Positions 3,531 to 20,419 of a stretch of DNA of 25,490 bases are shown piece by piece. Position 1 is the first letter of the stretch. Every line of letters begins with the position of its first letter. Both the position numbers and the translations under genes were made by a program. The stretch spans positions 1-25,490 of the IMG/VR virus record IMGVR_UViG_3300031140_000040; one strand, 5' to 3'. The notes beneath the pieces were generated by a model that had not been told where the DNA came from, did not search any database, and saw nothing but the letters and a program-made list of their open reading frames with translations. The stretch is from a virus.

Positions 3531-3573
3531 TTTTGTTTTGTTTATTAGTCGTTAATAATTAATTAAACATTAT

Positions 3574-4599: not shown

Positions 4600-4621
4600 T
4601 TTGTTTGCTTTTAACTAGTTA

Positions 4622-4629
4622 CAAAGATA
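4622..4629 (-). promoter_or_regulatory. Candidate Bacteroidota -7 box before scaffold and capsid genes
   Basis: On the minus strand the sequence reads TATCTTTG, matching the Bacteroidota -7 consensus TAnnTTTG, about 22 nt before the scaffold ATG. I see no TTTG at the expected -33 position (that region is A-rich), so this is only half of a promoter. It would allow extra transcription of scaffold, capsid and decoration genes. Confidence 0.35.
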
Positions 4630-6885
4630 TTATTTTTTTTGTATACTTTTTTTGGCCTCCATTTTAGATTGATGTTCGTTGTCTTTGTCCTTTTGTTGTG
4701 AACTAAAGTCAGACTTAACCTTTTCTAAAACAAGTTTGTTTCTCTCTCTCGTATCATCCATATCTCTACTTGCATCAGAAGCAATCTCCTGAGCAGCGAT
4801 TCTAGCTTCTGCATTAATTTGAGCCACTTGGATTCTACCTTCAATATCCATTCTCTTAAGTTCGGTTTCTGCCTGAACTTTAGCTTGGTCAGCTTCTGCT
4901 TGTTGTTGTTGCATTTGTTGTTGTTGTTCTTGAGCACCAGCTTGTTCTTTCTTCATAGCATCTATACCCTGTTCTAATATAACTTGAGCTTCACTCATAG
5001 TATCTGCCTTCATAACTTTAAGGGCATCTAATAAAGTAATAGTACCTGATTGAAGAGCTGCTTGAGACATTTGCTGAACTTGAGTTTTAAGTGCATCATC
5101 TTTACCAGAATCTCCCATGAATATACCATAGTCATTTAAAGCTACATCAGGAAGGACGCTAAGCATCTTATATCCAGCATCTCCGAATATGAATGCTGCT
5201 TTCTTTCCGCCAGCCCAAGCTATCTTCATTAAGTTAGCAAGGTCTTCCATAACCTTCTTCTTAACTATGTTATGAGAAAATACCCAACCACCAGTTGATA
5301 TAGCAGACTGAGTTACAGACCTTTGCACGTTACCTACATATTCATACTGCTCTACAGCACCTTCTCTTTGTGGTGATACACCTGAAACCTGACCTGCGGT
5401 CTGTTCAAGCATTACCTTAAGGTTTATAAGTTGTTGAACAGATTGAGATAATGTAAAGTCAATTTGTTGGAATTGATTGAACGGTGCAGAGTCCCCACCC
5501 TCATCACGAGAGTTTATAGGAATAATACCATCATTCTTTAAGTGGTACATAACATCTTGCATATCCATACCTAAGTTCGTAGGCATCTGAGATACATCAT
5601 ATACTACTGCCTTACCCCCAGAACGAGCTAATGCTAATTCAATATGGTACATAACAATGTTATATAGCATTTGTATATGACTAAGAATGTCCATTAAACT
5701 AGTAGACTTACCTGTAGTGTGGTTGTATATAACACCAACATAAGATAAAGAAGTACTACCAGCATCATCTACAGAACGTATTTGATTAGGTCTTCTTCTA
5801 CAGTTTACTGTAATCTTCCCACCAATCATAGTTCCTTCCCATATATCATCTACATGTTTAGTTTCTATTACATCACCTTTTCTTGCTTTGTAATGTTCTC
5901 CTACAACTTTATGGAATGGGTGCTCTGGATTGTGTTTGTTTTCTGAAACCTTTACTCTAATGGTTTTTATGGATTTCCATTCTGCAGATACAACTCTAAC
6001 CTTTATGTTTTTGTAATCATCTACATCTACCCAATTAAATTGGCTATTCCATTTGTCTATGTTCTCAGAACCAGACTGACGCATATCTTCAAGTTCACGA
6101 ACATCTTCGTCATCAAACTCGTTTCTATATTCATCTAATATTTCATTTACGCTTAACCATCTTTCTTCACCTGCCCATTGAGCATCATCTAAGAAATCAC
6201 TTTCTATAGACTTATCGAATACGAATGTACGTGGGTCTACCCTTCTAAAGTAAGGGTCGCCATCTTTTACATATATCTTATAAAATTCCTTACCAGTTAC
6301 AAGTAAATCTCTCATCCCTTCATGGAACACTTTCTTCATCTTGTACTTCTCGCCTAAATAATCTAAACCATCCTTGATAGATTCTTCTACGACTTCCTTG
6401 TATTCAAATCTCATGAAATGGTCAATATCGTCAGGTATAGGGAAATCTTTATTGTCCATATCCAGCTCCATCCCATAACTATTCTCTAATTCGGAATTGA
6501 TTTCATTAAGCAAGTCATTAGCTATAAGAGAAACTTTAAACTGTTCCTTTCTAATCGCTGCATCCATGTTAATAGCAAATACACTCTTATCTAAAGGTCT
6601 ACTCAACTCTTCATTACATAGAAGGTCAATTTTATTTTTAGACAAAGGGTAATTCCCCATGGTTGCTGGAGATGTCATCTTATACTGCTCAGTCACATAA
6701 CTGTAATCATCATAGATTAAATCACCATTGTATAGTCTGTAGTTTCTAACATCCTTATCGTAACTACTGGTAGAGCCTTCTGCATTACTTTGCTCTAACT
6801 CTGCTACAATAGCTTTGATGTTTTTCTCACACCACTCTTCATTCTTTTCGCTATCTGGAACGAACTGTTTTGGAAAGTCACTCAT
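4630..6885 (-). CDS. Portal protein
   Basis: The 751-aa protein follows TerL with a 3-nt gap and precedes scaffold and capsid, the canonical portal position. Length and style match the long portals of Bacteroidota phages: a polar N-terminus with YRLYNGDLIYDDYSYV (about residues 49-64), a KVFHEGMRDLLVTGKEFYKIYV helix and strand pair (about 182-203) followed by RRVDPRTFVFDK, which is the typical 'g.ef..v......p.f.rvdPr.f..D' portal core. The last 110 residues are a Gln-rich coiled coil (QEQQQQMQQQQAEADQAK) extending to a Lys-rich end, as expected for a crown or barrel region. It forms the dodecameric DNA gate at one capsid vertex and binds terminase. Confidence 0.85.
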   Translation of the reverse strand: MSDFPKQFVPDSEKNEEWCEKNIKAIVAELEQSNAEGSTSSYDKDVRNYRLYNGDLIYDDYSYVTEQYKMTSPATMGNYPLSKNKIDLLCNEELSRPLDKSVFAINMDAAIRKEQFKVSLIANDLLNEINSELENSYGMELDMDNKDFPIPDDIDHFMRFEYKEVVEESIKDGLDYLGEKYKMKKVFHEGMRDLLVTGKEFYKIYVKDGDPYFRRVDPRTFVFDKSIESDFLDDAQWAGEERWLSVNEILDEYRNEFDDEDVRELEDMRQSGSENIDKWNSQFNWVDVDDYKNIKVRVVSAEWKSIKTIRVKVSENKHNPEHPFHKVVGEHYKARKGDVIETKHVDDIWEGTMIGGKITVNCRRRPNQIRSVDDAGSTSLSYVGVIYNHTTGKSTSLMDILSHIQMLYNIVMYHIELALARSGGKAVVYDVSQMPTNLGMDMQDVMYHLKNDGIIPINSRDEGGDSAPFNQFQQIDFTLSQSVQQLINLKVMLEQTAGQVSGVSPQREGAVEQYEYVGNVQRSVTQSAISTGGWVFSHNIVKKKVMEDLANLMKIAWAGGKKAAFIFGDAGYKMLSVLPDVALNDYGIFMGDSGKDDALKTQVQQMSQAALQSGTITLLDALKVMKADTMSEAQVILEQGIDAMKKEQAGAQEQQQQMQQQQAEADQAKVQAETELKRMDIEGRIQVAQINAEARIAAQEIASDASRDMDDTRERNKLVLEKVKSDFSSQQKDKDNEHQSKMEAKKSIQKK

Positions 6886-6888
6886 TTT

Positions 6889-8688
6889 TTATTTTTTATA
6901 TGGAACTAATCTTCCGTTTTCTCTTTTATAATATACAAAGCCTAAATTCCCTTGTACTTGTTCATCTCTTTTTACTTGCTTATCGTATAAGTCAATGTCG
7001 TGTACTAAACATAAACCAAAGGCTATCGCCCTATCCGTGTTACGTAACCCATAACTACCAAGTTCATCTAGTAAATCTACAAACCAAATATCACCACAAT
7101 TCTCCTCTATATAGTTCTCCATGAATTGTTCCATCACTGCTTTAGTGTGTTTATTCATTTGAAGACCGTACCTATTCCTGTTAACAGTTTTAGGTGAGTG
7201 AGCTGTTGTTGGTCTCTCTTTTAAATATTGTTTTCCTCCTGCTCTCTGGAAATATCCAATGATTCCAATACGAGTGAACTCAATCAGCATTTTCGCATTG
7301 TAATATACGGCTAATTTTAGACACCCATCCCAGAACTCTTCTGCTGTGTCTGGACGCTCTGTATACTCAGCAATAGGGTAGTTTCCAGCTATCTCCATGT
7401 TATAGAATCGTCTAAAGATAATAGCACTCCCTAAAGAGGAAGTTGACGACTCATCCTGGTCATACGAATCAATTCCACCTATATCTAAACCTTTAAGTTC
7501 AGTGTTTGGGTGTGCTAATATCTTATATGGACCATTCCTATCAAGAACAAACTTGACTTGCATTCCTTCGGCTTCCCATTCTAGTCTACCGCTTTGTATC
7601 TGACCTTGCAAATCTTCACTACTTAGTATCTCACTTCGTTGTGCGTTTATCTTAGCCACGTTAAATCTAGAGTTCTTAGTTTGTAAGAAAGCTTCTTCTA
7701 CGGATAATGGGTAATTTTGTAATTCTAGGTTGTATCCTTTCTGATTACCTGCCTTATGTAGTTGTTCTCTTCTGTCTTTAAGAGCTTTTGTAGCCCCGTC
7801 ATTATCTGAAGTACCTGTCTTTATATCAAAGAATCCATGATAACACATGGAAGCAGGAATAAACATAGGTATAAGGTTAAAGGCATCAGCATTATAATAC
7901 ATCTCCATGAAATCCTTAGAGGCTGCTTCAATATCTCCACCCGTTCCACCAATAATAGGAACTCCATACTGGACATTCCCATCCATGAAACAAGCCTTAG
8001 ATGACATATAAGCGTTAAGCAACTCTTTGAATTCCCCAGCTTCCTCAAATACCATCACAGAAAGACGTTCACCCTTATATACTTCAGGATTACTCATCGT
8101 TCTACAGTGTATAACAGATTGAAATCCATCTACACCCCATTTACCTTCTTTGTCTTTTATTTTATAACCAGATTTAAGAACTTCCTCACCTTCTTTAAGT
8201 GTTGAGTGTCTAAAATTGGAGTTTTGATTGTTGAGTCCTGCTTTCACCTTATCAAAGAAGGATGTAGCAGTCACCTGAAGCCCTGCGGCTACCCCTACGT
8301 GGTTGTACGGATAGAATGTGTATTCGTGTGCCAGGATACCAGAGTTCATGTAAGAGAACCCCTTATCTCTAGCCTTGATAACAATCATTCCTTTCTCTTC
8401 TTCCTTGCATGTATCGAACAAGTCAAAGTAATGCTTGTCCATATCTCTATACCAAGGAGCGATAAGAGTCTTACGACTGTTACCCTTGACACCATCACTA
8501 CCTAAAATTTTATAGAAGTTTAAATAATAATAGTGCTTACCAGTGATTCGTGGCATGCCTTTGGGTGCGAACCCGAACTTACACCTCTCAATCTGTTCGT
8601 CCCAATACTCCCTGAAAGAAACACTCTCTGGATTTAAGGTAGGAACACCTTCATAAATTAAAGGTTGATACTTCTTTGCATCAAACAT
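6889..8688 (-). CDS. terL: Terminase large subunit (packaging ATPase-nuclease)
   Basis: This 599-aa protein is the DNA-packaging motor. The ATPase domain shows an atypical P-loop, KARDKGFSYMNSG (residues 105-117), lacking the usual GK[ST], as in many Bacteroidota phage terminases. The Walker B is VMVFEEAGEF (211-220, with E215 and E216), and GGTGG (247-251) fits the coupling motif. YPLSVEEAFLQ (326-336) is the classic linker between ATPase and nuclease. The RNase H-like nuclease starts at GLDIGGIDSYDQD (400-412). It overlaps the preceding gene by 8 nt and is followed 3 nt later by portal. The start MFDAKKYQ fits this overlap; a start further upstream is not needed. Confidence 0.9.
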   Translation of the reverse strand: MFDAKKYQPLIYEGVPTLNPESVSFREYWDEQIERCKFGFAPKGMPRITGKHYYYLNFYKILGSDGVKGNSRKTLIAPWYRDMDKHYFDLFDTCKEEEKGMIVIKARDKGFSYMNSGILAHEYTFYPYNHVGVAAGLQVTATSFFDKVKAGLNNQNSNFRHSTLKEGEEVLKSGYKIKDKEGKWGVDGFQSVIHCRTMSNPEVYKGERLSVMVFEEAGEFKELLNAYMSSKACFMDGNVQYGVPIIGGTGGDIEAASKDFMEMYYNADAFNLIPMFIPASMCYHGFFDIKTGTSDNDGATKALKDRREQLHKAGNQKGYNLELQNYPLSVEEAFLQTKNSRFNVAKINAQRSEILSSEDLQGQIQSGRLEWEAEGMQVKFVLDRNGPYKILAHPNTELKGLDIGGIDSYDQDESSTSSLGSAIIFRRFYNMEIAGNYPIAEYTERPDTAEEFWDGCLKLAVYYNAKMLIEFTRIGIIGYFQRAGGKQYLKERPTTAHSPKTVNRNRYGLQMNKHTKAVMEQFMENYIEENCGDIWFVDLLDELGSYGLRNTDRAIAFGLCLVHDIDLYDKQVKRDEQVQGNLGFVYYKRENGRLVPYKK

Positions 8689-9208
8689 TCTTTTGGCTCT
8701 GTAAAGTTTCTAAATAACTAAGCTCTCTATTACCAGCAATCTTAGAACGTTCACCACGCCTCTCAATAGCATCTAATAGTTTCTGTCTAGTCCCTAATAC
8801 TTTCTCTACGCCAATCATAATCTTCTGTATGTCGGCTGCATTATCTATATTAATCTTAGTAGAATCGAGCAATTCAGTATACTCATTTATTTTCTCATTA
8901 AAAGCTGAGAGTTGAGCATCGAGGGGGTCATATTGAAGTTGGTTATACTTAAGTATTGCGGCAGCAATTTTTTTATTTTTTGAGCCTTTCCACTCATAGT
9001 CTTGATATAAGTCTTTAGATACGACTCTAACTCTCTCATCGAGGGTGAAGTGTCGGTACGGGGAGTCATAATCTGCTATATACGCAACATACATGAGTCC
9101 TTTACTGCCAAAGCTTTTAGAATCTATAAGGTCTTTGAATTCTGGTATACCAAATATGCCATCATCCTCAACAACGCTTCCTTTATTACTTATTTTTAGT
9201 AGGTACAT
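8681..9208 (-). CDS. Unrecognised protein before TerL; small-terminase candidate
   Basis: The 175-aa protein begins MYLLKISNKGSVVEDDGIFGIPEF. Similar proteins starting MYLLKIs are, as I recall, encoded immediately upstream of TerL in Bacteroidota phages, so the family seems real but is usually called hypothetical. The middle contains YVAYIADYDSPYRHFTLDERVR (about residues 41-62) and the second half is long-helical (about 95-165), compatible with an oligomerising small terminase. No clear helix-turn-helix is seen. It overlaps TerL by 8 nt and the upstream gene by 23 nt, which implies translational coupling. A DNA-recognition role in packaging is inference from position. Confidence 0.55.
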   Translation of the reverse strand: MYLLKISNKGSVVEDDGIFGIPEFKDLIDSKSFGSKGLMYVAYIADYDSPYRHFTLDERVRVVSKDLYQDYEWKGSKNKKIAAAILKYNQLQYDPLDAQLSAFNEKINEYTELLDSTKINIDNAADIQKIMIGVEKVLGTRQKLLDAIERRGERSKIAGNRELSYLETLQSQKNV

Positions 9209-9500
9209 ACTTTTCGAGTTCTGTTTTCATTATAAAGACACCGTGAATTACATGCGTTGACTCACCTTCTTCTGGTTCGCCATCCTCGTCAAGGTACTTG
9301 TAGTATATAGTTGATGTGCTACCTCCAGCAAGCTTATAGTTATTAACAATTGGTAGGTATCCCATTTCTATATAGTCTTCCATAATCGCAGACTCTCTCT
9401 TGTCAGACATTTCAGCTACGTTCACGTACCCAAATATCTTTCCATTTGGCATTAGCTCCACTACACCAAACTTTGTTTTTTGCTTCTCCATTGTTTCCAT
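9186..9500 (-). CDS. Unrecognised small protein, first gene of the TerL unit
   Basis: I do not recognise this 104-aa protein. It is beta-rich with GVVELMPNGKIFGYVNVAEM (about residues 12-31), acidic at DEDGEPEEGES (about 71-81), and ends KYVPTKNK. It starts at ATG 9500 or at the second ATG, 9491; the second is attractive because a TAACTTTG -7-like box at 9512-9505 would place transcription initiation next to the first ATG. It follows an intrinsic terminator at 9514-9543, so it appears to open a new transcription unit that runs through TerL and portal. It overlaps the following gene by 23 nt. Confidence 0.6.
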   Translation of the reverse strand: METMEKQKTKFGVVELMPNGKIFGYVNVAEMSDKRESAIMEDYIEMGYLPIVNNYKLAGGSTSTIYYKYLDEDGEPEEGESTHVIHGVFIMKTELEKYVPTKNK

Positions 9501-9504
9501 GATA

Positions 9505-9512
9505 CAAAGTTA
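9505..9512 (-). promoter_or_regulatory. Candidate -7 box for the TerL-portal transcription unit
   Basis: The minus strand reads TAACTTTG here, matching TAnnTTTG, directly after the terminator U-tract at 9514-9522 and immediately before the first ATG. No TTTG is present at the expected -33 distance because that space is taken by the terminator. A promoter just after a terminator makes sense, but the evidence is one box only. Confidence 0.35.
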
Positions 9513-9513
9513 A

Positions 9514-9543
9514 TAAAAAAAAGGGCTCATATTACTGAACCCT
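9514..9543 (-). terminator. Intrinsic terminator after the three tagged basic genes
   Basis: On the minus strand, AGGGTTCA-GTAATA-TGAGCCCT (8 pairs, one G-U, 6-nt loop) is followed by eight or nine T residues (plus-strand A run 9514-9522). The run of U exists only for minus-strand transcription. It separates the tagged basic proteins from the TerL unit. Confidence 0.88.
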
Positions 9544-9582
9544 CTTAAATCAAAAAACATAATATTTATATATTATAAAATA

Positions 9583-9852
9583 CTAATCATGTTGTATGAG
9601 TCCACCGCTCTTGTATGATTTTAACATAGCTAGTTCGTTACCTCCTTGAGTTTTGTTTCCGTTATTTCCGAACTTAGCGTTCTTCTTCATAGCGTACACC
9701 TCTCGTACTGCAGCTCTCTTTCTTTGTTTCCTGCTACCAGTAAGCTTTACTTCACCACTCTTACCTCTTACAAGTTTACGTGCAAGCTTTCTAGTATCTT
9801 TAGATACTGTACGCCCTCCGTATTTTTTGTATTTCCTTAAGTTGACACCCAT
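9583..9852 (-). CDS. Small basic protein with C-terminal KSGGLIQHD tag
   Basis: This 89-aa protein is strongly basic (many Lys and Arg, for example RKLARKLVRGKSGEVK and GSRKQRKRAAVREVYAMKK), with an N-terminus GVNLRKYKKYGGRTV. It ends YKSGGLIQHD. The same C-terminal motif ends the next two genes upstream, although codons differ (GGTGGACTCATACAACATGAT here). Its composition suggests nucleic-acid binding. It is the last gene of a three-gene unit closed by the terminator at 9514-9543. The tag could direct the protein into the capsid, mark a protease site, or bind a shared partner; none is established. I recognise no named family. Confidence 0.75.
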   Translation of the reverse strand: MGVNLRKYKKYGGRTVSKDTRKLARKLVRGKSGEVKLTGSRKQRKRAAVREVYAMKKNAKFGNNGNKTQGGNELAMLKSYKSGGLIQHD

Positions 9853-9853
9853 G

Positions 9854-10132
9854 CTAGTCGTGTTGTATTAATCCTCCTTTACTAAAAGATTTCTTCTTAG
9901 TTTTAGATTCGTTGTAAGCATTAGTAAATGTATTGCTAAACCTTTTACCTAAACTAGCTTCTCCTTTAGGAGTGCTTAGCTTTTTAGCTTTAGGTTGCTT
10001 TATCTTAACTGGCTTCTGGTCTGCTTTATCTTGTTGCTTTAATCTAGAAGCTCTGTTCTTGTTGTCTTCTCTATCTATACGAAGCTTTAGGGCTGCATCT
10101 TTTTTAGCTTTTCTTTTTTTTCCTATTGGCAT
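9854..10132 (-). CDS. Small basic protein with C-terminal SKGGLIQHD tag
   Basis: This 92-aa protein is lysine-rich throughout (starts MPIGKKRKAKKDAALKL; centre KIKQPKAKKLSTPKGE), looks largely disordered or helical, and ends KSFSKGGLIQHD. It is separated by one nucleotide from the next gene and by 9 nt from the previous, so the three tagged genes are one operon. The rest of the sequence does not align convincingly with its two neighbours; only the tag is shared. A role in DNA condensation or as a virion-internal protein is a guess from charge and from the position upstream of TerL. Confidence 0.75.
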   Translation of the reverse strand: MPIGKKRKAKKDAALKLRIDREDNKNRASRLKQQDKADQKPVKIKQPKAKKLSTPKGEASLGKRFSNTFTNAYNESKTKKKSFSKGGLIQHD

Positions 10133-10141
10133 AATATATAT

Positions 10142-10579
10142 TTAGTCGTGCTGAATAAAACCACCTTTAGAATATCCTCTATCCTTTGGATTACCTTTAT
10201 CGAACAAGTTAGTATTGTGAGTTCTTTTATATTGCTTCTCAACCTTACGATTCTTCACTTGAGAAATCTTACGCTTAACCTTATTCTTAAGAGGCTCTTT
10301 AACTTTTCCTCCTTTAGAGTATCCAATAACACCCAAAGCTGCTTTACCTACTTTCTTAGCTGTAGACTTAACGTAATCAATTGTAGACTTTGTTTTAGTT
10401 TTAGGAGTCTTCTTAATAGAACCACTACCAGCACTACCACTCTTTACAGGGTCTGTAGTACGTCTAACAACTTTATCCATAACATCCTTAGAAGACTGAG
10501 ACTGAACGTCCTTACCTCTTTTAATCTTACGCATTACTTTCTTACCAGCTCTCTTGGCTTTCTTTACTTTATCAGGCAT
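10142..10579 (-). CDS. Basic protein with C-terminal SKGGFIQHD tag and internal YSKGG
   Basis: This 145-aa protein is the first gene of the leftward head block. It is extremely basic (starts MPDKVKKAKRAGKKVMRKIKR). A short hydrophobic stretch with YVKSTAKKVGKAALGVIGYSKGG (about residues 69-91) could be amphipathic. It ends RGYSKGGFIQHD. The internal GYSKGGK repeats the beginning of the terminal tag GYSKGGF, which suggests duplication of a tag-bearing segment. Start ATG 10579-10577 follows an AT-rich leader and a TATTTTTG box. No named family recognised; it is likely an early-assembled or packaged DNA-binding protein. Confidence 0.72.
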   Translation of the reverse strand: MPDKVKKAKRAGKKVMRKIKRGKDVQSQSSKDVMDKVVRRTTDPVKSGSAGSGSIKKTPKTKTKSTIDYVKSTAKKVGKAALGVIGYSKGGKVKEPLKNKVKRKISQVKNRKVEKQYKRTHNTNLFDKGNPKDRGYSKGGFIQHD

Positions 10580-10749
10580 AATATTATATATTTAGTTTAG
10601 ATTCAAAAATACATAAAAATAATTTATATTTATTTGAGTGCGGATGTATTCCGTTAGTGACCCCCATGGTGTTCAAAACTTTGGATACCCCCATACTGTA
10701 CCCATATCCTGCTATTCTTCTCTGATATAAATAACTAAACCCATTCGTT
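10580..10749. promoter_or_regulatory. Divergent control region between head genes and accessory genes
   Basis: This 170-bp gap separates leftward and rightward transcription. The left half is very AT-rich and on the minus strand carries TATTTTTG (10611-10604), a match to the Bacteroidota -7 box about 25 nt before the first tagged gene; no -33 TTTG lies at the right distance. The right half is C-rich, with ACCCCCAT twice (10660-10667 and 10687-10694), a possible operator pair 27 bp apart, and ends in the first copy of the five-copy repeat. CGGA-TGTAT-TCCG (10641-10653) is a small palindrome. Confidence 0.55.
10708..10723 (+). repeat. CCTGCTATT(T)CTTCTCT repeat, copy 1
   Basis: The sequence is CCTGCTATTCTTCTCT. 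It is followed by ATAAATAACTAAAC and an ATG exactly 42 nt from the start of the repeat (10750). It is preceded by a short GGATA...TATCC pairing. Five such copies occur between 10.7 and 12.93 kb and none was seen elsewhere in the window. A phage-specific promoter, RNA-processing or terminator-antiterminator site are possible roles. Confidence 0.7.
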
Positions 10750-10956
10750 ATGAAATACTTAAGCTTGAGTGACCTTGTTGACTATGTTGACAATACTTCG
10801 ATTACATATCCGTGTGCAATGGAGTTGATAATCACTAACGACTCACCTGTTGAGTTCCTTATATCAAGTAAGGACGACTTCAACGAGACTATGTGTGACC
10901 TTGCAGGTAACATAGGTTCGTCAGGTATGCGTGAATCATTAGGTCGTATAGTATAA
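10750..10956 (+). CDS. Small protein, YPC-type paralogue A
   Basis: This 68-aa protein is unrecognised. Its first half (SLSDLVDYVDNTSITYPCAMELII) aligns by eye with the first half of the 80-aa protein at 11215 (SADLLKTVQNGNVINYPCELLI): both have DL[VL], an Asn, an Ile and YPC followed by EL.I. It is acidic, without membrane segments. It is the first rightward gene and follows repeat copy 1 with a 42-nt leader; a terminator at 10959 follows it, so it seems to be a one-gene transcription unit. Such short first-transcribed phage genes often act on host proteins, but that is a general tendency, not evidence. Confidence 0.65.
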   Translation: MKYLSLSDLVDYVDNTSITYPCAMELIITNDSPVEFLISSKDDFNETMCDLAGNIGSSGMRESLGRIV

Positions 10957-10958
10957 TG

Positions 10959-10995
10959 TAGTAGGCTCTTAGCAGGGCCTGCTATTCTTCTCTTT
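10959..10995 (+). terminator. Terminator-like hairpin whose 3' arm enters repeat copy 2
   Basis: TAGTAGGC (10959-10966) pairs with GCCTGCTA (10977-10984) through 8 pairs including one U-G, with a 10-nt loop, followed by the pyrimidine-rich TTCTTCTCTTT. It begins 2 nt after the stop codon of the 68-aa gene. The 3' arm is the beginning of the repeat, so the repeat may serve as a terminator tail as well as the leader of the next gene. Confidence 0.65.
10978..10993 (+). repeat. CCTGCTATT(T)CTTCTCT repeat, copy 2
   Basis: The sequence is CCTGCTATTCTTCTCT, identical to copy 1, followed by TTAATAATTAACTAATA and an ATG exactly 42 nt from the repeat start (11020). It doubles as the 3' part of the hairpin at 10959-10995. 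Confidence 0.7.
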
Positions 10996-11019
10996 AATAA
11001 TTAACTAATAAACCTTCTT

Positions 11020-11181
11020 ATGTACGAGATAAAAATACTTCGTGGAGAGGACGCAAGCGTCCAAAAGACATTGAACCAATGGAAACATAAGTTCTCTGTT
11101 AAGATATTGTCGTGTGTACCATGTCCTCATAAGGAGGGTGTAACCCATGCGACTGTATGCCGAACACCTAAGCCCGACTAA
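11020..11181 (+). CDS. Small Cys/His-rich protein
   Basis: This 53-aa protein starts MYEIKILRGEDASVQ and ends RTPKPD. Its second half has C32, C35, H37, H43 and C47 (SCVPCPHKEGVTHATVC), a spacing compatible with a small zinc-binding site. It lies 42 nt after repeat copy 2 and its stop codon is inside an intrinsic terminator at 11168-11194, so it looks like an independent unit. A 15-bp stretch of its coding sequence (11103-11117) recurs at 11664-11678 in non-coding DNA, suggesting that a decayed copy of the gene lies there. Function unknown; zinc binding is inferred from spacing only. Confidence 0.6.
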   Translation: MYEIKILRGEDASVQKTLNQWKHKFSVKILSCVPCPHKEGVTHATVCRTPKPD

Positions 11182-11194
11182 CGGGTTTAGTTTT
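11168..11194 (+). terminator. Intrinsic terminator overlapping a stop codon
   Basis: CTAAGCCCG (11168-11176) pairs with CGGGTTTAG (11182-11190), 9 pairs with one G-U, with a 5-nt loop holding the stop codon TAA, followed by TTTTAATT. It ends the 53-aa gene. The next gene begins at 11215 with only an A-rich leader, so it needs read-through or its own promoter. Confidence 0.78.
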
Positions 11195-11214
11195 AATTAA
11201 AACAATAAAAGGTT

Positions 11215-11457
11215 ATGCTGAACTCAGCTGATTTATTAAAGACCGTACAAAACGGCAATGTTATCAACTACCCTTGTGAACTACTTATCTGCGATAAGCA
11301 AGGCCAAGTAGCAACTATGTATGATATAGACTCTTACCACCAAATGGTAGAGCAAATATTATACTTAAGTTACGATGTAGATATAATGTACAAGGTCGTG
11401 CAAATTATAGACTGCAACGACGACTACAAAAACTATCCAACAGACTTACCCTTCTAA
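11215..11457 (+). CDS. Small protein with SSB-tip-like C-terminus (YPC-type paralogue B)
   Basis: This 80-aa protein is unrecognised. It is acidic and ends YKNYPTDLPF. The final DLPF matches the conserved C-terminal tip of Bacteroidota single-stranded DNA-binding proteins, which recruits repair and replication proteins, but no OB-fold is visible in so short a chain. Its first half resembles the 68-aa protein at 10750 around the YPC motif. The leader is A-rich (AACAATAAAAGGTT) with no Shine-Dalgarno-like dependence. It could imitate the SSB tip to capture host partners, or the ending could be chance. Confidence 0.65.
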   Translation: MLNSADLLKTVQNGNVINYPCELLICDKQGQVATMYDIDSYHQMVEQILYLSYDVDIMYKVVQIIDCNDDYKNYPTDLPF

Positions 11458-11594
11458 GGGTTCGTTTGTTGTCTCACTATCATAATGCGTAGTAGTTTGG
11501 GAGTTTCGTCGAGTTATGCCAATGCAAAGTAGTATAATATGTGTGTGTGGAAGAGTGAATAGAACACTTCAAAAACGCTTATATCCACCCACAT

Positions 11595-11611
11595 CCTGTT
11601 ATTTCTTCTCT
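11595..11611 (+). repeat. CCTGCTATTTCTTCTCT repeat, copy 3
   Basis: The sequence is CCTGTTATTTCTTCTCT, one change from the consensus, followed by ATATTAACTAACATAA and an ATG 41 nt from its start (11636). That ATG opens only a 6-codon frame, so the downstream gene is missing or decayed. Confidence 0.7.
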
Positions 11612-11703
11612 ATATTAACTAACATAAGTTGCGTAATGTATGCACTAAGTTGTTGATTAGCAGGATATTGTCGTGTGTTCGTCGGGTGTGTTTAAGCCCT
11701 TGT

Positions 11704-11720
11704 CCTGCTATTTCTTCTCT
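11704..11720 (+). repeat. CCTGCTATTTCTTCTCT repeat, copy 4
   Basis: The sequence matches the consensus and is followed by TTATTAAGTAAGC. An ATG lies 45 nt from its start (11749), opening a 26-codon frame that runs into the large inverted repeat. The repeat forms the 3' side of a 10-pair hairpin starting at 11658. Confidence 0.7.
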
Positions 11721-11737
11721 TTATTAAGTAAGCATCT

Positions 11738-11876
11738 TATTTATTTAGATGTTTAAGTATCTTCTAGGGAGTTATCCACTATCCCACCAAAGGTACAATA
11801 AATATATGATAAAGTCAAGTCGCAGTTGATAGCGCGATTGACCATCAGTATATTTATTTAGATGTTTAATAGTGGA
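11738..11876 (+). other. Candidate replication origin or structured RNA: nested inverted repeat with DnaA-box-like site
   Basis: The 19-bp sequence TATTTATTTAGATGTTTAA occurs twice (11738-11756 and 11851-11869). TTATCCACT (11772-11780) differs from the DnaA box TTATCCACA at one base. Nested pairings follow: TCCACTAT (11775) with ATAGTGGA (to 11876); AATAAATATATGAT (11797-11810) with ATCA-G-TATATTTATT (11844-11858), 14 pairs and one bulge; GTCAA-g-TCGC (11814-11823) with GCGATTGAC (11834-11842). AT-rich direct repeats, a DnaA-like box and large dyad symmetry are typical of origins; the phage also encodes a DnaA-domain-IV-like protein and a helicase. An RNA element controlling the next gene is the main alternative. 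Confidence 0.45.
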
Positions 11877-11913
11877 CACCAATTAACTTGAGCAATAAAT
11901 TAAAGCTCACACT

Positions 11914-11946
11914 TAGCCCGAAGACATCACCCGTGGGCTATTTTAT
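11914..11946 (+). promoter_or_regulatory. Attenuator-like hairpin ahead of the 228-aa gene
   Basis: TAGCCCG (11914-11920) pairs with TGGGCTA (11934-11940), 7 pairs with one G-U, followed by TTTTAT. It lies just upstream of the ATG at 11960. If the longer TTG start at 11888 were used it would lie within the coding sequence; as a leader element it would favour the ATG. Confidence 0.4.
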
Positions 11947-11959
11947 ACGGGAATATATT

Positions 11960-12646
11960 ATGTTCAAAATACCTACAGGATTACAGTCAGCAGACATCAA
12001 ATCGCCAATGCGTCTGCACCAAGCCTTAGACTCAGTAAGAGCTATAGTAGTTGGCTTCGAGGATACCAAATCAGCCGTAAAGGTTGACGGAAAAGTAGTC
12101 GGAGAGAAAGACAAGGCTTTACTTAAACTTAAGTTCCCTTCATTAGATACGGAATTTAACGAGGCTACCTTCACGCTAAGATTTATGAATAAGACCATAG
12201 CTCAAATCTCTATGGAATTCTATTTATACGGCTTGACGGGTAGCAAAGTGCCAAAGGCTACGACTAACATTGCTAAGTGGATACTAGGCGTGAACTTAGA
12301 TGAGAAGGGCGTTCCTGCTTCATCACCAGTACACGACGATGACGGAAACCCATACCACGAGTCTTTATCTGCATTTGCAGACAACTTCAAGCTACATTAC
12401 AGTAGCTCAAAGTTATACTCTATCCTAAGAGAGAACAAGACTAAGTTTGACCCTTCAAATCTTGCTGAATCCTTAGCAGGTAAGGAGCTAGTCGTGAAGA
12501 CTTTCTTCCACGAAGACTTGAAAGATTACACCATATCCACAACGGATTACACTTACAAAAGTAAGTCAGGTAATAACAATTCAAGTACACCTCAAGCGAA
12601 AAGCTTTAGCGTGAAATCACAAGCAGGTAACGGAGCTTCGTGGTAA
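11960..12646 (+). CDS. Unrecognised 228-aa early-region protein
   Basis: I chose the ATG at 11960 (MFKIPTGLQSADIKSP), though the frame is open back to a TTG at 11888, which would add 24 residues. The added part overlaps a terminator-like hairpin, and TTG is the weaker start. The protein is mixed alpha and beta, with KVDGKVVGEKDKALLKLKFPSL, an aromatic strand FYLYGLTGSKVP, and a Ser/Asn-rich flexible tail (SGNNNSSTPQAKSFSV) ending GASW. No catalytic motif or membrane segment is seen. It is an isolated single gene between two structured intergenic regions, followed by a hairpin at 12653. Its size and isolation suggest it is strongly expressed; a DNA-binding or replication role is possible but not shown. 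Confidence 0.7.
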   Translation: MFKIPTGLQSADIKSPMRLHQALDSVRAIVVGFEDTKSAVKVDGKVVGEKDKALLKLKFPSLDTEFNEATFTLRFMNKTIAQISMEFYLYGLTGSKVPKATTNIAKWILGVNLDEKGVPASSPVHDDDGNPYHESLSAFADNFKLHYSSSKLYSILRENKTKFDPSNLAESLAGKELVVKTFFHEDLKDYTISTTDYTYKSKSGNNNSSTPQAKSFSVKSQAGNGASW

Positions 12647-12652
12647 GAATAT

Positions 12653-12678
12653 TAGGGAGGTCTTAACGGACTTCCCTA
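12653..12678 (+). terminator. Terminator-like hairpin after the 228-aa gene
   Basis: TAGGGAGGTC (12653-12662) pairs with GACTTCCCTA (12669-12678), 10 pairs with one G-U, loop TTAACG. It starts 7 nt after the stop codon. The following TTTAACTAAG is only weakly U-rich. Confidence 0.6.
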
Positions 12679-12683
12679 TTTAA

Positions 12684-12782
12684 CTAAGTTCAAGCCGTAA
12701 TCATAATGTCCTTGATGTGCAACGGTTGCAAGCATGCGTAATCACACCCGAATATTGTAGCGGAGGTTGGCTTGAACATTAG
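12684..12782 (+). ncRNA. Candidate structured RNA closed by a 13-pair stem
   Basis: CTAAGTTCAAGCC (12684-12696) pairs with GGCTTGAAC-a-TTAG (12769-12782), 13 pairs with one bulged A, enclosing 72 nt. Inside is TGCAA-CGG-TTGCA (12718-12730), and GTAATCA occurs twice (around 12697 and 12738). No ORF of useful length is present and the stretch is richer in G+C than its surroundings. No known RNA family is recognised. Transcription is not shown by the sequence. Confidence 0.4.
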
Positions 12783-12911
12783 TTACTATTACTGCGTGCA
12801 AAACAACAAGGCTTACAGCATGGCGCAACCGAGCGTGCACCAAGCCGTTAAAAATCACTATCACTATGCACCGTACTATGCAGGGTATATCCATTGCTTT
12901 TCCGTTCTGTT
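12783..12911 (+). other. Gene-free stretch with a second nested stem-loop
   Basis: GGCTT-aca-GCATG (12810-12822) pairs with CGTGC-acc-AAGCC (12834-12846): two 5-pair stems (one G-U) around a 3x3 internal loop. A Cys-free, ORF-free tail follows with CTATGCA twice, and GCAGGG (12880-12885) can pair with the start of repeat copy 5. Together with 12653-12782 this makes 345 bp without a gene. Confidence 0.4.
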
Positions 12912-12927
12912 CCTGCTATTTCTTCTC
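12912..12927 (+). repeat. CCTGCTATTTCTTCTC repeat, copy 5
   Basis: The sequence is CCTGCTATTTCTTCTC followed by GTCCTTAATTAACCC. The next ATG is 80 nt away (12992), further than for copies 1-4, with a T-rich stretch between. It lies at the head of the long rightward block 12992-16922. Confidence 0.65.
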
Positions 12928-12991
12928 GTCCTTAATTAACCCTTGTTTTTATTATAGGGTGTAACCGATTAACTAATTAAATTACAACAAC

Positions 12992-13420
12992 ATGGCTAAG
13001 ACTATGATTACTAAAACAATGGTGCTACAACGCATCGTAACTAACCTTGCTAAGAAGAAGGTTTATGTTACAAGATTAGGTAAGCAAATAATTCCTCAAA
13101 ACGAAAACGACTTACCTCCTAGAATGAAGAGAGCAAGCAACAAAGGTGTAGCTAACCCAGAGTATAACAAGGCACATGGTCAGCTATATTATGAGTTGAT
13201 AACTAAGCCCAATAGAGAAGTCTTATCAAGTAAAAAGATTAAGGCAATATTTAAAGCTACTAAGAAGGTAGCACCAAAACCTATTGAGCCTATGAAAGCA
13301 TACAAAGAGATAGCTAGAACTGGTAGAGTAGCTGAAGCGAAGACACTAGTAATTAACATGTCTCCGACTATGACTTGCACAATTACAAACAACGGATTAA
13401 TAACTGTAGACTTTAAGTAA
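12992..13420 (+). CDS. Unrecognised basic protein
   Basis: This 142-aa protein is lysine-rich (net positive) with an N-terminus MAKTMITKTMVLQRIVTNLAKKK that could form a helix, a central Asn/Lys region (RMKRASNKGVANPEYNK), and a beta-like C-terminus (TMTCTITNNGLITVDFK). No known domain is recognised. The leader ATTACAACAAC before the ATG is A-rich. It opens the block that leads to the glutaminase and amidoligase genes and is followed after 1 nt by a membrane protein gene. Confidence 0.65.
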   Translation: MAKTMITKTMVLQRIVTNLAKKKVYVTRLGKQIIPQNENDLPPRMKRASNKGVANPEYNKAHGQLYYELITKPNREVLSSKKIKAIFKATKKVAPKPIEPMKAYKEIARTGRVAEAKTLVINMSPTMTCTITNNGLITVDFK

Positions 13421-13421
13421 C

Positions 13422-13613
13422 ATGAAAAATAACTTCACAAGGATTTATATAATGTGTATTGTATTTACACTATGTATAGCAGTAGACATATACTTCGCCT
13501 ATGTAATAGGTTGGAAGTTCACTATCATGGCTATATGCGGAGCAGCCTTCACATACTTAGCTTACTTGACTTACAAAGAGTTGTCAACATTTAGAAGTTC
13601 ATTCTATGACTAA
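13422..13613 (+). CDS. Small protein with two membrane segments
   Basis: This 63-aa protein has hydrophobic segments at about residues 8-28 (YIMCIVFTLCIAVDIYFAYVI) and 32-50 (FTIMAICGAAFTYLAYLTY), with short polar ends (MKNNFTR and KELSTFRSSFYD). An N-in, C-in hairpin is likely. It starts 1 nt after the upstream stop and overlaps the next gene by 8 nt, so it is part of an operon. Its place among early-type genes argues against a holin; an inner-membrane anti-superinfection or host-takeover factor is possible but unproven. Confidence 0.7.
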   Translation: MKNNFTRIYIMCIVFTLCIAVDIYFAYVIGWKFTIMAICGAAFTYLAYLTYKELSTFRSSFYD

Positions 13614-14100
13614 CTTTAACGTAGGTCTTGGTACTATTGATATAGTATCAGAAGGCTTTCAGGTAACTATAAGAAAGCGACCAACAAGTGATGCAAACAT
13701 ACCTTCCGAGGTGTTGTTTGTAAATCACTCTACCGATGCACAGTACTCATTTGAAGAGCGTGAGCTTAACATGGTACATAAGCAATGCGATGAATATGAA
13801 TTTCGTATTAGCTTAATATTTGAAGACTATAACTATGAATTCTTTCACTACCTGTCGTCCCGTATAGTATTTCAGGGTGAGAGTTTAGATGAATACAATC
13901 ACTGTATTATTCTAAGTAAGGAAAACATGGCTAAAGTTATTAACATTGTGTGTAACGACATGGATGAGTTTGTAATTCACACCGCAGAGAAGAGAATCAG
14001 TGATATTAAGACTAAAATGAATATAGATGATGAACAATACACCCAGATGCAAGCGCACTTTGAAGCAATTTCAAGAACTACTAAAGCTTCAGCATGTTAA
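13606..14100 (+). CDS. Unrecognised acidic protein
   Basis: This 164-aa protein starts MTNFNVGLGTIDIVSEGFQV. The first 110 residues are beta-rich with many aromatic residues (FRISLIFEDYNYEFFHYLSSRIVFQG), and the rest is helical (MAKVINIVCNDMDEFV, RISDIKTKMNIDDEQ). No motif that identifies a function is visible. It overlaps the membrane protein gene by 8 nt, implying coupled translation. Confidence 0.65.
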   Translation: MTNFNVGLGTIDIVSEGFQVTIRKRPTSDANIPSEVLFVNHSTDAQYSFEERELNMVHKQCDEYEFRISLIFEDYNYEFFHYLSSRIVFQGESLDEYNHCIILSKENMAKVINIVCNDMDEFVIHTAEKRISDIKTKMNIDDEQYTQMQAHFEAISRTTKASAC

Positions 14101-14110
14101 GCCAGCGACT

Positions 14111-14251
14111 ATGTCGTTTAAGATTGTAGATGGTGGTTATGTACTCTTCTGTAAGGAGGATATGCTACCTGTATCTACAGATGAATTAGGTAAGGCTCTT
14201 AATGAGCAAGAAATTAAATCGTTCTTCTATAAGAACAGAAAACTAAATTAG
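14111..14251 (+). CDS. Small unrecognised protein
   Basis: The chosen start is ATG 14111, 11 nt after the previous stop, giving 46 aa (begins MSFKIVDGGYVLFCKEDM, ends FFYKNRKLN). The frame extends back to an ATG at 14027, but that would overlap the upstream gene by 74 nt and read as an out-of-frame copy of it. The piece has a beta-like first half and a helical second half. Six nucleotides separate it from the glutaminase gene. Confidence 0.5.
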   Translation: MSFKIVDGGYVLFCKEDMLPVSTDELGKALNEQEIKSFFYKNRKLN

Positions 14252-14257
14252 GAAATT

Positions 14258-15277
14258 ATGTGTGGAATTACAGCATACTCTGGTAAGAGTGTAAATATAC
14301 TAAAGGCAATGCATTTATTAGAAGACAACGACAGCCGAGGAGGACACAGCACAGGAATGTATGTGGAGAACGGAGCATTCAAGAAGCTATATAAAACAAC
14401 GGGCGAAAGCTCAGAGCTATTGAGACAAGTCGAGCATAATAAAGCAGAGTTGTTCATTGGACACACTCGATATGCCACTCATGGTGTTAAAACCGCTGAG
14501 AACACACACCCTTATGCTATCGGTAGATTTATCGGTTGCCATAATGGAGTGTTAAACAACTATGAAGAGTTGTGTAAGAGTAATGATGTATTAGTACCAG
14601 ATGTAGACTCTAAAGCTATATATACTATACTTGATAAGACTAATGACTACCAAACACTTGGTGTTCATGGAGGTACAATCAATGCAGTATGGACTGAGCG
14701 TGATGGTAGACTGTATGTATACAGAAGAAACAACCCTCTATTTAAGATGGAAGTTAATGAAGGTATATACTTCTCATCATTAAGAAGAGGGCTTGAGGAT
14801 ATATGTCCTTTCGATTGTATAGTAGAAGAGGTGGAGAAAGAATGCCTATTCATATATGAAGAAGGAGAACTGGTTGCATCTATAGACATACCAACTACAT
14901 ATGTAGCACCTAAGAACACGAAGGTTAAAAACTGGACTGACTATAAGCCTGAGAATACAAGCTATTACGATGACCTTACAAGAGAGAGTAATGACTACTA
15001 CGGCAAGAAAGATGACTGGTATGCAACTGCAGACGACAGGTACTCTCTTGAGATGTATGTAGACAAAGAGCTAGAAGAAGCGGAGACTGTATTATTAATG
15101 ACGCAGATTGAAGTACTTGTAGCTTTAGGTACAGAAATGGAAGACTACCTTAATGATGATGAGATGAACGCTTACAATGCTCTAACCTCTCAAAAATATA
15201 GAGAGCTGGATACAGTAAGAGATGAGGCAGAACTACATAGACAACTACGTAGCAATCAAATAGTAGCCCCATTCTAA
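14258..15277 (+). CDS. Class II glutamine amidotransferase (GATase II)
   Basis: This 339-aa protein has an N-terminal nucleophile glutaminase domain. Cys2 follows the initiator Met (MCGITAYSG), as needed for the N-terminal nucleophile. Then come RGGHSTG (27-33, in place of RGPDSxG), GHTRYATHG (68-76, with R71), CHNGVLNNY (94-102, oxyanion Asn and Gly) and DVDSKAI (115-121, the conserved glutamine-binding Asp). This domain releases ammonia from glutamine. There is no SIS, synthase or phosphoribosyltransferase domain; the last 130 residues are acidic and helical (YDDLTRESNDYYGKKDDWY). It shares TAATG with the next small gene and lies just ahead of an amidoligase, so it may supply ammonia or trim amide groups in the same pathway. 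Confidence 0.88.
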   Translation: MCGITAYSGKSVNILKAMHLLEDNDSRGGHSTGMYVENGAFKKLYKTTGESSELLRQVEHNKAELFIGHTRYATHGVKTAENTHPYAIGRFIGCHNGVLNNYEELCKSNDVLVPDVDSKAIYTILDKTNDYQTLGVHGGTINAVWTERDGRLYVYRRNNPLFKMEVNEGIYFSSLRRGLEDICPFDCIVEEVEKECLFIYEEGELVASIDIPTTYVAPKNTKVKNWTDYKPENTSYYDDLTRESNDYYGKKDDWYATADDRYSLEMYVDKELEEAETVLLMTQIEVLVALGTEMEDYLNDDEMNAYNALTSQKYRELDTVRDEAELHRQLRSNQIVAPF

Positions 15278-15450
15278 TGTCAGTTAATATGGAAAAGAAC
15301 CTTGTCTTTGTGTCTGATACTCAGTACATTGATGAGGTCCTTACTTCTACTAAGAAGTTAAGAAGACGTTCGGCATACAAGAGCGATGTAGATATAGTGA
15401 TTAACAAACTTAAAAACATCAAACTATTATGCCAACAGAAAACGAAATAA
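15277..15450 (+). CDS. 57-aa protein between glutaminase and amidoligase
   Basis: The ATG overlaps the glutaminase stop (TAATG at 15275-15279), and the stop lies 22 nt inside the amidoligase gene. The product starts MSVNMEKNLVFVSDTQYIDEV and has a basic helix KKLRRRSAYKSDVDIVINKLKN, with a single Cys near the end (LLCQQKTK). The overlaps make coupled translation of all three genes likely. It could be an accessory subunit or a peptide substrate of the ligase, but no leader-peptide family is recognised. An internal ATG at codon 5 is an alternative start. Confidence 0.6.
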   Translation: MSVNMEKNLVFVSDTQYIDEVLTSTKKLRRRSAYKSDVDIVINKLKNIKLLCQQKTK

Positions 15451-16922
15451 TTGACAGCGCATTACAAGCATCTTTAGGTAGTGTAGTATTTGATTTAGCA
15501 TCATTCGCTGAACCTCAAGAAATTGGAGAAGGCTTAGTTAGAGTATCCGTACAATTAGCTAACTCAGCAGAAGATAAGTCAATCATTGTATCTAAAGATA
15601 TAACAGAGCTTGACTCAGGTACTCACTTCCTATACCCTTATGCTATTGATGAGGAGATTATGGATAGCCTAATAGGAGAACATGGCATATGTTATATAGA
15701 AGACGACCAATGGTATCTAGCTAGGCATAGCGAGGTAGTACATTGCGACCATAACTGCCAATGGATATTCAAGGACGATTCTATTTGGGGACAAGTAGGC
15801 AATGGAAATGAAGGGTTCTTTCATCAAGAAGAAGACTATGTAAGGTGTCAAGATTCAGACATCGCATATATAAACTCAGATGTTGCTGACGACGATGAAT
15901 GCTACTACTGCAACGATTGTGATGCATATAGAGCTAGCGAATCAGACCACGACTGCAATGATGATGATGACTACGATAACGATGGTGATGATGTATACTT
16001 CAACAATACAAGAGGAGCTAGTAATTTTGATAGTCTTAAACAGAAAAAGTTCTGGGGTACAGATAGTCCTACCTTCTCTATATCTAACGGTATGAGATAT
16101 ACATTCGGTGTAGAGATAGAGACTAGTAACGGTACTATGGACCGTGATGACTGGCAAGAACTTAACATATCATCTATGTATGATGGCTCAACTAGCGGGC
16201 CTGAATATGTTACAGGTGTACTGAAAGGTGACTACGGATTCAATCATCTTAAGAGGGTATGCAAAGCTGTTAGGAGTAACAATCATGAAACTAATAGTAG
16301 GTGTGGTATACATGTGCATGTAGGTGGTCAGTTCAATAGACGATTCACTATCATGCTGCTACGCTTATCTTATCAGTTGCAAGATGAAATCTTTAGAATG
16401 ATGCCACCATCGAGGGTAGGTAATACTTATTGCAAGTATATACCAACGTGGGCTAGTAAGATAAACTTCCAAGACTTCAGAGAGCAGTTGGGTAAGTTTA
16501 TATATAACGATAGCACTACTCTTGACAAGTATCATAACAAAGAGAAGAGACATGATAAGTATGCAGGTACTCGTTACAGGTGGGTAAATATCAATAACTT
16601 CAGTACAGCTAGTGGGAGACCAACAGTTGAATTTCGTAATCATGGAGCTTCAATGAGCTATGAGAAGATACGTAACTGGACGTTGATATGTATGTCTATT
16701 GTGCACTATGCAGAGTCTAATCAGAAGAGGATATACAACGATGTGGAATCAATCACATTAAAAGATGTTCTAATTGACGGTTTAGGAACTAACATAGCTT
16801 CACAAGTATATGCATACTATGAAGATAGGGTTGAAGGTTTCAAGCACCACTATGCACGGGGCGGAGACAAAGACAACCATTTACCATCTCACATAATAAA
16901 TAGAGGAGATGTAATAGATTAA
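15429..16922 (+). CDS. Amidoligase (glutamine synthetase-like COOH-NH2 ligase) with Cys-rich N-terminal region
   Basis: The C-terminal 280 residues show the amidoligase pattern (Amidoligase_2, PF12224 type): FGVEIET (226-232, E229 and E231 for metal), YDGSTSGPEYVTGVLKG (251-267), CGIHVHVG (292-299, H295 and H297), RWVNINNF (384-391) and TVEFRNHG (399-406). Enzymes of this family are predicted to join a carboxyl group and an amine using ATP, with a glutamine-synthetase-like fold. The N-terminal 210 residues carry CxxxC (106-110), C140, and CYYCNDC (158-164), C176, possibly a zinc site, followed by a run of Asp residues (178-189). The gene overlaps the 57-aa gene by 22 nt. Its substrate is unknown; wall peptides, proteins or small molecules are options. 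Confidence 0.85.
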   Translation: MPTENEIIDSALQASLGSVVFDLASFAEPQEIGEGLVRVSVQLANSAEDKSIIVSKDITELDSGTHFLYPYAIDEEIMDSLIGEHGICYIEDDQWYLARHSEVVHCDHNCQWIFKDDSIWGQVGNGNEGFFHQEEDYVRCQDSDIAYINSDVADDDECYYCNDCDAYRASESDHDCNDDDDYDNDGDDVYFNNTRGASNFDSLKQKKFWGTDSPTFSISNGMRYTFGVEIETSNGTMDRDDWQELNISSMYDGSTSGPEYVTGVLKGDYGFNHLKRVCKAVRSNNHETNSRCGIHVHVGGQFNRRFTIMLLRLSYQLQDEIFRMMPPSRVGNTYCKYIPTWASKINFQDFREQLGKFIYNDSTTLDKYHNKEKRHDKYAGTRYRWVNINNFSTASGRPTVEFRNHGASMSYEKIRNWTLICMSIVHYAESNQKRIYNDVESITLKDVLIDGLGTNIASQVYAYYEDRVEGFKHHYARGGDKDNHLPSHIINRGDVID

Positions 16923-17009
16923 TATATAGGGTCGGAGAATTGAGTGGACTCCTTTAATGCCGTGATTCAAGTCGAGCCTGACAAACCACATGTGCGCCCT
17001 TATATATTA
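16920..17009 (+). promoter_or_regulatory. Structured intergenic element after the amidoligase gene
   Basis: TAATATATA-GGG (16920-16931) pairs with CCC-t-TATATATTA (16997-17009), 12 pairs with one bulge, and encloses 65 nt with smaller pairings such as GGAG/CTCC and GAGT-GG-ACTC. It begins on the amidoligase stop codon. It is followed by TTAACTAACTAAAAAAAATC and the next ATG at 17030, so it sits between two blocks of genes. It may stop or process transcripts, or act as the leader of the next block. No U-tract is present. Confidence 0.5.
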
Positions 17010-17029
17010 TTAACTAACTAAAAAAAATC

Positions 17030-17260
17030 ATGAACGTAGAACAAGAGATACAGAGTATTATAGATAATATGGCTAACCATGTAGAGAAGACAGGTTCAAC
17101 TAAGCTATCTGTATGTAACGAAAGAAACTGGGATAAAGACCTATGGAACTATCGTCATCAAATCATGGATGCACTAAGGGGTAGAGGGTATATAATAAAC
17201 TCGTCTACTAACTATGAAGTGTTGGATATAATAGTAACAAAGAAACTTGAATTAAAGTAA
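17030..17260 (+). CDS. Small unrecognised helical protein
   Basis: This 76-aa protein starts MNVEQEIQSIIDNMANHVEK and contains NERNWDKDLWNYRHQIMDALRGRGYIIN, a mostly helical section with several Trp and Arg residues followed by a short beta end (YEVLDIIVTKKLELK). The start follows an A-run leader. It may be a small winged-helix-like or accessory protein, but I see no reliable family. It is the first gene after the structured element at 16920-17009 and is followed 1 nt later by the next small gene. Confidence 0.6.
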   Translation: MNVEQEIQSIIDNMANHVEKTGSTKLSVCNERNWDKDLWNYRHQIMDALRGRGYIINSSTNYEVLDIIVTKKLELK

Positions 17261-17261
17261 T

Positions 17262-17453: not shown

Positions 17454-17458
17454 AGGTA

Positions 17459-20390: not shown

Positions 20391-20411
20391 TAAATAAAAA
20401 CATTATATTTG
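20383..20411 (+). promoter_or_regulatory. Bacteroidota housekeeping-type promoter
   Basis: TTTG at 20383-20386 and TATATTTG at 20404-20411, separated by 17 bp, match the Bacteroidota consensus TTTG ... TAnnTTTG (usual spacing about 17-23). Transcription would begin only a few bases ahead of the HU-like ATG at 20420, giving a nearly leaderless message. It lies across the end of dnaB. Confidence 0.7.
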
Positions 20412-20419
20412 TAAAAGCT

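Follow-up and report, generated by a model that had tools for sequence, protein, structure and literature searches.

Three tagged genes beside the head genes

The window (the whole stretch of DNA that was analysed) comprises positions 1 to 25,490 of the 25.5 kb virus record IMGVR_UViG_3300031140_000040. Three adjoining open reading frames lie on its minus strand, at 10142–10579, 9854–10132 and 9583–9852, encoding proteins of 145, 92 and 89 amino acids, denoted A, B and C, respectively. (Open reading frames were called mechanically in all records.) Protein A ends in YSKGGFIQHD (C-terminus RGYSKGGFIQHD), protein B in FSKGGLIQHD (KSFSKGGLIQHD) and protein C in YKSGGLIQHD (KSYKSGGLIQHD). The codons for the last eight residues, together with the stop codon, occupy 10142–10168 (KGGFIQHD), 9854–9880 (KGGLIQHD) and 9583–9609 (SGGLIQHD), all on the minus strand. 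The three proteins are basic, with isoelectric points of 10.6, 10.5 and 11.0, respectively. Apart from their ends, phmmer found no match between any of them, in agreement with the preliminary description of a C-terminal tag on otherwise differing basic proteins, and an origin from one duplicated gene was rejected on this lack of mutual similarity.

The codons for the tag (GGTGGACTCATACAACATGATTAG, GGAGGATTAATACAACACGACTAG and GGTGGTTTTATTCAGCACGACTAA) show many synonymous differences among the three window genes, and the stop codons are also unlike. The same was seen between genomes: in the related contigs L006 and L007, a tagged body is 40% identical, and the tag is the same at all eight residues with five synonymous codon changes. 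This variation, both within and between genomes, bears out the earlier suggestion that selection acts on the tag at the protein level.

The predicted structure of protein C, which was of moderate confidence (mean pLDDT 68, from a shallow alignment of eight sequences), has a folded N-terminal part at about residues 11–61, consisting of a beta hairpin and helices, and a disordered tail that includes the tag. Comparison of the predicted fold with the PDB gave no noteworthy match. The body of protein B was found in near-identical contigs only. Searches of PHROGs and Pfam assigned no function to the tagged proteins, the sole match being to DUF5872.

A promoter box of the Bacteroidota TAnnTTTG type (TATTTTTG) lies on the minus strand at 10604–10611, 32–25 nt before protein A. 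Of 14 loci, 12 have a TAnnTTTG box 23–35 nt ahead of their first tagged gene, compared to 0.6 expected. At the other end, the unit is closed by an intrinsic terminator hairpin at 9519–9546 (minus strand), as had been described. It is conserved in relatives: of 13 loci inspected, 12 have a hairpin of −13 to −18 kcal/mol between the last tagged gene and gp104, and L037 has a GC-rich hairpin there without a run of five T. The tagged genes thus look like a late transcription unit of their own, a separation made likely by the box and the terminator around them.

This unit sits between divergent early genes and a packaging and structural unit with the order gp104–gp175–TerL–portal–gp341–MCP, encoded on the minus strand. 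The first gene of the latter, gp104 (9186–9500), encodes a conserved, acidic protein. It is followed by the conserved gp175 (8681–9208), which occupies the position of a small terminase between gp104 and TerL and gave no match in a family search. The large terminase subunit (TerL; 6889–8688; phrog_6681, E = 5e-86) lies two genes further downstream of the tagged unit, placing the tagged genes upstream of TerL as originally noted. The portal protein (4630–6885; phrog_6547, E = 6e-107) comes next, and the gene for the major capsid protein (MCP; 2082–3530; phrog_11589, E = 3e-27) is found 6 kb downstream of the tagged genes, on the same strand. Between the portal and capsid genes is gp341 (3574–4599), an acidic protein (pI 4.5) with long helices and an acidic, disordered N-terminal half, which we consider a candidate scaffold. 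Both gp341 and, as its rival, MCP are candidate receptors for the tag. FDPxxF occurs twice in gp341, near the N-terminus (GFDPTSFL) and at the extreme C-terminus (GFDPSKF), and in 12 homologs neither copy varies in its F-D or its final F. The protein may use both ends to bind a site on the capsid or the portal.

Among the early genes on the plus strand, 14258–15277, 15429–16922 and 23741–24142 encode a class II glutamine amidotransferase, an amidoligase-like protein and a protein resembling gamma-glutamyl cyclotransferase, respectively. The amidotransferase and amidoligase-like genes recur through the lineage, and phage phi14:2 has similar annotated genes. The amidoligase and glutamine amidotransferase were considered as modifiers of the tag and rejected, as phi14:2 carries an annotated aminotransferase gene beside ATP-grasp and gamma-glutamyl cyclotransferase genes, without the tag in the regions fetched.

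Recurrence, consensus and modularity of the tag

From comparisons of its head genes, the window's phage is assigned to an uncultured Crassvirales-like lineage. Its TerL is about 28% identical to those of crAss phages over 90% of the length, its portal 29% identical to that of cr114_1 over the full length, and its MCP 25–27% identical to those of crAss-like families over about 60%. The crAss tail ring proteins are present in relatives of 57 and 67 kb, CrAss_Ring_1 and CrAss_Ring_2 each matching two proteins of the G001/G003 set. In TerL or portal, even the nearest cultured phages in the collection reach no more than about 30% identity. The records of the relatives are metagenomic and mostly fragments; the kind of relatives suggests that the lineage is mostly marine.

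Run as the preliminary description had proposed, an end-anchored search of IMG/VR for GG[LF]IQHD followed by a stop codon gave 23 matches in 19 contigs, against 1 contig for the same residues permuted, and KGG[LF]IQHD without a following stop occurred in 3 contigs. The broader KGGx[IVM]Q[HY]D-stop gave 44 matches in 31 stretches. Among 84,980 genomes of bacteria and archaea, the end-anchored pattern occurred in 15 stretches, none of which ends a plausible small basic gene, the reading frames mostly being 7–55 amino acids long, whereas the reading frame behind the phage matches encodes a small basic protein every time. With the permuted tag, the non-terminal tag and the cellular genomes all at background level, chance occurrence in unrelated proteins was rejected. 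(Four matches in L167, a rumen alphaproteobacterial contig, were discarded as antisense to a repetitive gene.) The tag recurs at the C-termini of basic proteins beside TerL in relatives of this phage, and all tag-bearing contigs long enough to judge belong to this single lineage, sharing homologous TerL, helicase, amidoligase or other genes. A search of open-access papers (PMC) returned no description of the tag, in line with the earlier remark that no described tag of this sequence was known to its author.

For an unbiased sample, 80 loci were gathered by TerL rather than by the tag, and the genes upstream of TerL were inspected. In the window's own clade, the proteins in this gene slot end in GGx[IV]Q[HY]D. 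For clades at a greater distance, the same slot yielded GGLVQHN, SSYRQYN, GGSLNQYD, GGLVQFD, GQKD, EQRD and MFTEQYD. The consensus was counted over 57 representatives with body identity under 60%, Q at position −3 being the selection rule. Position −2 is H in 35 of these, Y in 12, K in 6, L in 2 and R in 2; position −1 is D in 54 and N in 3; and G is found at −7 in 40 and at −6 in 34. The core of the tag is Q-[HYKRFL]-[DN] with a free carboxylate, and the [YF]xxGGx[IV] arm is a frequent extension. The tag originally given as [K/S]GG[L/F]IQHD is therefore real and end-anchored, with the qualification that its conserved core is only Q-x-D/N, GG[LF]I representing a common extended form.

The motif Q[HYFKRL][DN]-COOH ends 98 of 289 small basic open reading frames versus 3 of 858 others. 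Upstream sequence sufficed at 66 TerL loci, 56 of which have at least one tagged gene upstream of TerL. Since near-duplicates are numerous among the contigs, neither the ORF counts nor the locus counts represent independent events. Two of the three carriers outside the basic class are small, near-basic QKD proteins. Of the ten loci with no upstream tagged gene, six share a gene arrangement and a similar TerL, and one record of this group, G017, has seven tagged genes elsewhere. The TerL of the other four is only about 60% identical; G020 (65 kb), one of these, has no tagged gene.

Near-complete genomes contain 1–7 tagged genes, the numbers per record being three in G001, four in G002 (one doubtful), two in G003, six in G013, seven in G017 and one in G022. 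In the long records that were read through, the tagged genes are on the same strand as TerL. They adjoin each other and frequently run up to, or beyond, the start codon of the following gene; they also stand isolated or last in a unit. In a more distant clade, they are located between a TerS-like gene and TerL, and in the clade of L024, G006, G013 and G017, many lie far from TerL, near late tail and giant-protein genes. Untagged giant proteins of about 4,000–4,400 amino acids are encoded towards the far end of the late genes in G001 (2376–14456), G002 (29280–41735), G003 (10726–24000), G013 (36862–48807) and G022 (37516–49659), and may correspond to the virion RNA polymerase proteins of crAss phages. 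The late region also encodes a conserved, basic, untagged protein starting with MARN[ST]LAGK, at 33268–33546 in G001, 63835–64113 in G013, 60409–60690 in G017 and 64529–64807 in G022. In G013 and G017 its gene adjoins tagged genes, providing a natural contrast to the tagged proteins.

The tagged proteins are all small and basic (pI 9.8–11.4). The 55 distinct proteins collected first fall into 22 body families (phmmer, E = 1e-3), unrelated to one another, with this one short peptide in common and C-terminal every time. Protein A, which belongs to family 1, is a fusion of two modules, each of which is a separate tagged gene in relatives, as seen by alignment: the N-terminal module in L007, L003 and L033, and the C-terminal module, of 62–75 amino acids, in L003, L013, L014 and L042. 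The extra internal GYSKGG pointed out previously is present at residues 86–91 and is explained by its location at the junction of the two fused tagged modules. One tagged body family matches DUF5872 (PF19197, E = 1e-12), a family with no assigned function. DUF5872-type proteins are tagged in G006, G013 and G017, and G001 has an untagged gene whose product starts identically (MAVRKTKAG); here the tag is an addition found in only some members of the window's lineage. In L042 (1061–1300) and L013 (44–283), an EF-hand or dockerin-like insert (FPDLNKDGKITxADILKGR) leads from an internal KGG to the terminal tag.

Candidate functions of the tag

A short, end-anchored motif that unrelated bodies have in common, and that is confined to small basic late proteins encoded next to the head genes, argues for a targeting tag. 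Loading into the virion would be consistent with the preservation of the tag residues while codons and bodies diverge, and with the predicted location of the tag of protein C in a disordered tail. We give an even chance to the reading that the C-terminal peptide is a transferable virion-loading tag of the T4 capsid-targeting or encapsulin-cargo kind. A more specific version is put forward tentatively, namely a modular address code in which Gln-x-Asp with its free carboxylate, optionally extended by the [YF]xxGGx[IV] arm, would load an open-ended, fast-changing set of basic proteins into crAss-like heads. Late in infection, the phage would make its 1–7 small basic proteins of DNA-binding type, with bodies that change rapidly from one phage to another. 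Within the assembling head, a receptor shared by all of them would bind the free C-terminus and collect the tagged proteins into the procapsid. The likeliest candidates for this receptor are gp341, the acidic candidate scaffold, and the capsid protein of HK97 fold, on its inner face. The loaded proteins could then neutralise or organise the DNA in the head, or travel into the next host. We infer their presence in the virion, the identity of the receptor and the roles of the bodies.

Some observations count against loading. The expected large cargo, the 4,000-residue (possibly RNA polymerase-like) proteins, carries no tag; the peptide is therefore not a general cargo tag, and a role of this kind for the giant proteins was rejected. 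Some small basic late proteins are also untagged, such as the MARNSLAGK family beside tagged genes. Among cultured Crassvirales, no tag was found in the regions fetched from phi14:2, Fpv20, crAss001, cr114_1 and ProJPt-Bp1, and phi14:2, which has structural proteins annotated by mass spectrometry, offers no tagged protein among them.

Alternatively, the tag could be a docking motif for a partner other than the capsid (the packaging motor, a replication or transcription complex, or condensed phage DNA), and the proteins would work jointly in the cell late in infection, unpackaged. An end-anchored motif with an acidic last residue on a disordered tail would suit such docking, as would the location of tagged genes beside TerL, or between the TerS-like gene and TerL in the more distant clade. 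However, no evidence singles out one such partner, and the many tagged genes far from TerL in the L024/G006/G013/G017 clade fit poorly with it; we consider this explanation unlikely.

The GG might instead mark a maturation protease site, where a cut after [YF]xxGG would free the IQHD tail and split fusions like protein A. Adenovirus-type proteases cleave core proteins in a comparable way. Consistent with cleavage, the GYSKGG junction is retained in both forms of the fusion (window and L002) even though QHD has been lost there, and a further xGGx[IVLM] is found in 36 of 99 tagged bodies, compared to 6.7 in shuffled sequences. Against this, many tagged ends have no adjacent GG (GQKD, EQRD, MFTEQYD and RQYN), as also reflected in the incomplete occupancy of −7 and −6 among the representatives, and Q-x-D/N is always kept, although a tail destined for removal would have no need of it. 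Nor did eight records (genomes not closed) give a match to Peptidase_C5 (adenain) or S78. (Searches for C48 and, in eight records, for S77, the gp21-family prohead protease, PF03420, were empty, and their controls were likewise silent.) Because the GG is not universal among the tagged proteins, we regard cleavage as quite improbable. The preliminary description had offered a capsid-loading or a virion-protease signal; what holds is a real end tag, acting at the protein level, on late basic proteins, and the GG-centred protease is weakened.

A signal for stability or turnover, either a C-degron or a shield from a host tail-specific protease, might set the levels of toxic basic proteins. The strictly C-terminal position and the need for the terminal residue would agree with this, but it gives no reason for the tag to be confined to basic late proteins encoded next to head genes, and Q-x-D is unlike any ClpXP or Lon tail known to us, making this very improbable. 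Finally, an effect at the DNA or RNA level (a hot spot for recombination, coupled translation or duplication of the operon), to which the adjoining, often overlapping genes might point, is scarcely credible, being contradicted by the synonymous variation in the tag, the differing stop codons, the occurrence of the tag on genes that stand alone or come last in a unit, and the dissimilar bodies of neighbours in the window.

Likeness to known targeting peptides

The choice of enclosed non-structural proteins is known in detail for very few tailed phages (T4, P22, T7 and jumbo phages). The capsid targeting sequence (CTS) of T4 is N-terminal and is removed by the prohead protease gp21. The internal proteins of T-even phages are a highly diverse set with only this targeting sequence in common (PMC3012670). 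The likeness of the window's tag to the CTS of IPI–III and Alt consists in a short peptide shared by diverse, small, basic late proteins, the set of which varies between phages. In contrast to the CTS, the tag in the window's lineage is C-terminal in every case and has another sequence; furthermore, the T4 proteins are internal to the virion, whereas a virion location is only proposed for those of the window's lineage.

Encapsulin cargo peptides are C-terminal, about 10 residues long, and dock inside an HK97-fold shell (PMC7355545). As in the window, they are found on unrelated proteins encoded near the gene for the shell (PMC7355545). The cargo of encapsulins is mostly folded enzymes, whereas the window encodes basic proteins of DNA-binding type and the shell is a phage capsid. 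We know of no sequence likeness between the encapsulin cargo peptide and the window's tag. The comparison in idea with encapsulin cargo tags made in the preliminary description is thus apt as to position, unrelated carriers and nearness to a shell gene, with the T4 CTS closer still.

An address-label candidate this short, on many unrelated proteins, was obtained from the sequence alone. Through it, proteins that probably enter the virion or are injected can be picked out in an uncultured lineage that otherwise lacks annotation for its small genes, and variable basic proteins can be linked between genomes even where their bodies are not recognisably similar. If loading is its function, it would be, to our knowledge, the first C-terminal virion-cargo tag common to dozens of unrelated phage proteins, and could then be used to bring foreign proteins inside such crAss-like capsids. 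It is also a candidate where a loading peptide is sought for engineered particles.

In phage crAss001, of the same order as the window's lineage, the cargo proteins gp45, gp46, gp47, gp49 and gp50 are held in the head and tail for ejection (PMC10172136). These differ from the tagged proteins in being large (60–277 kDa) and in having no common C-terminal tag; the giant proteins of the window's lineage are untagged too. In what could be a coincidence, gp45 (cargo protein 1; L163, 41987–44515) has the C-terminus TKKAKGGKVRTKKKKGLTYG, in which KGGKV is like the internal KGG of the tagged proteins.
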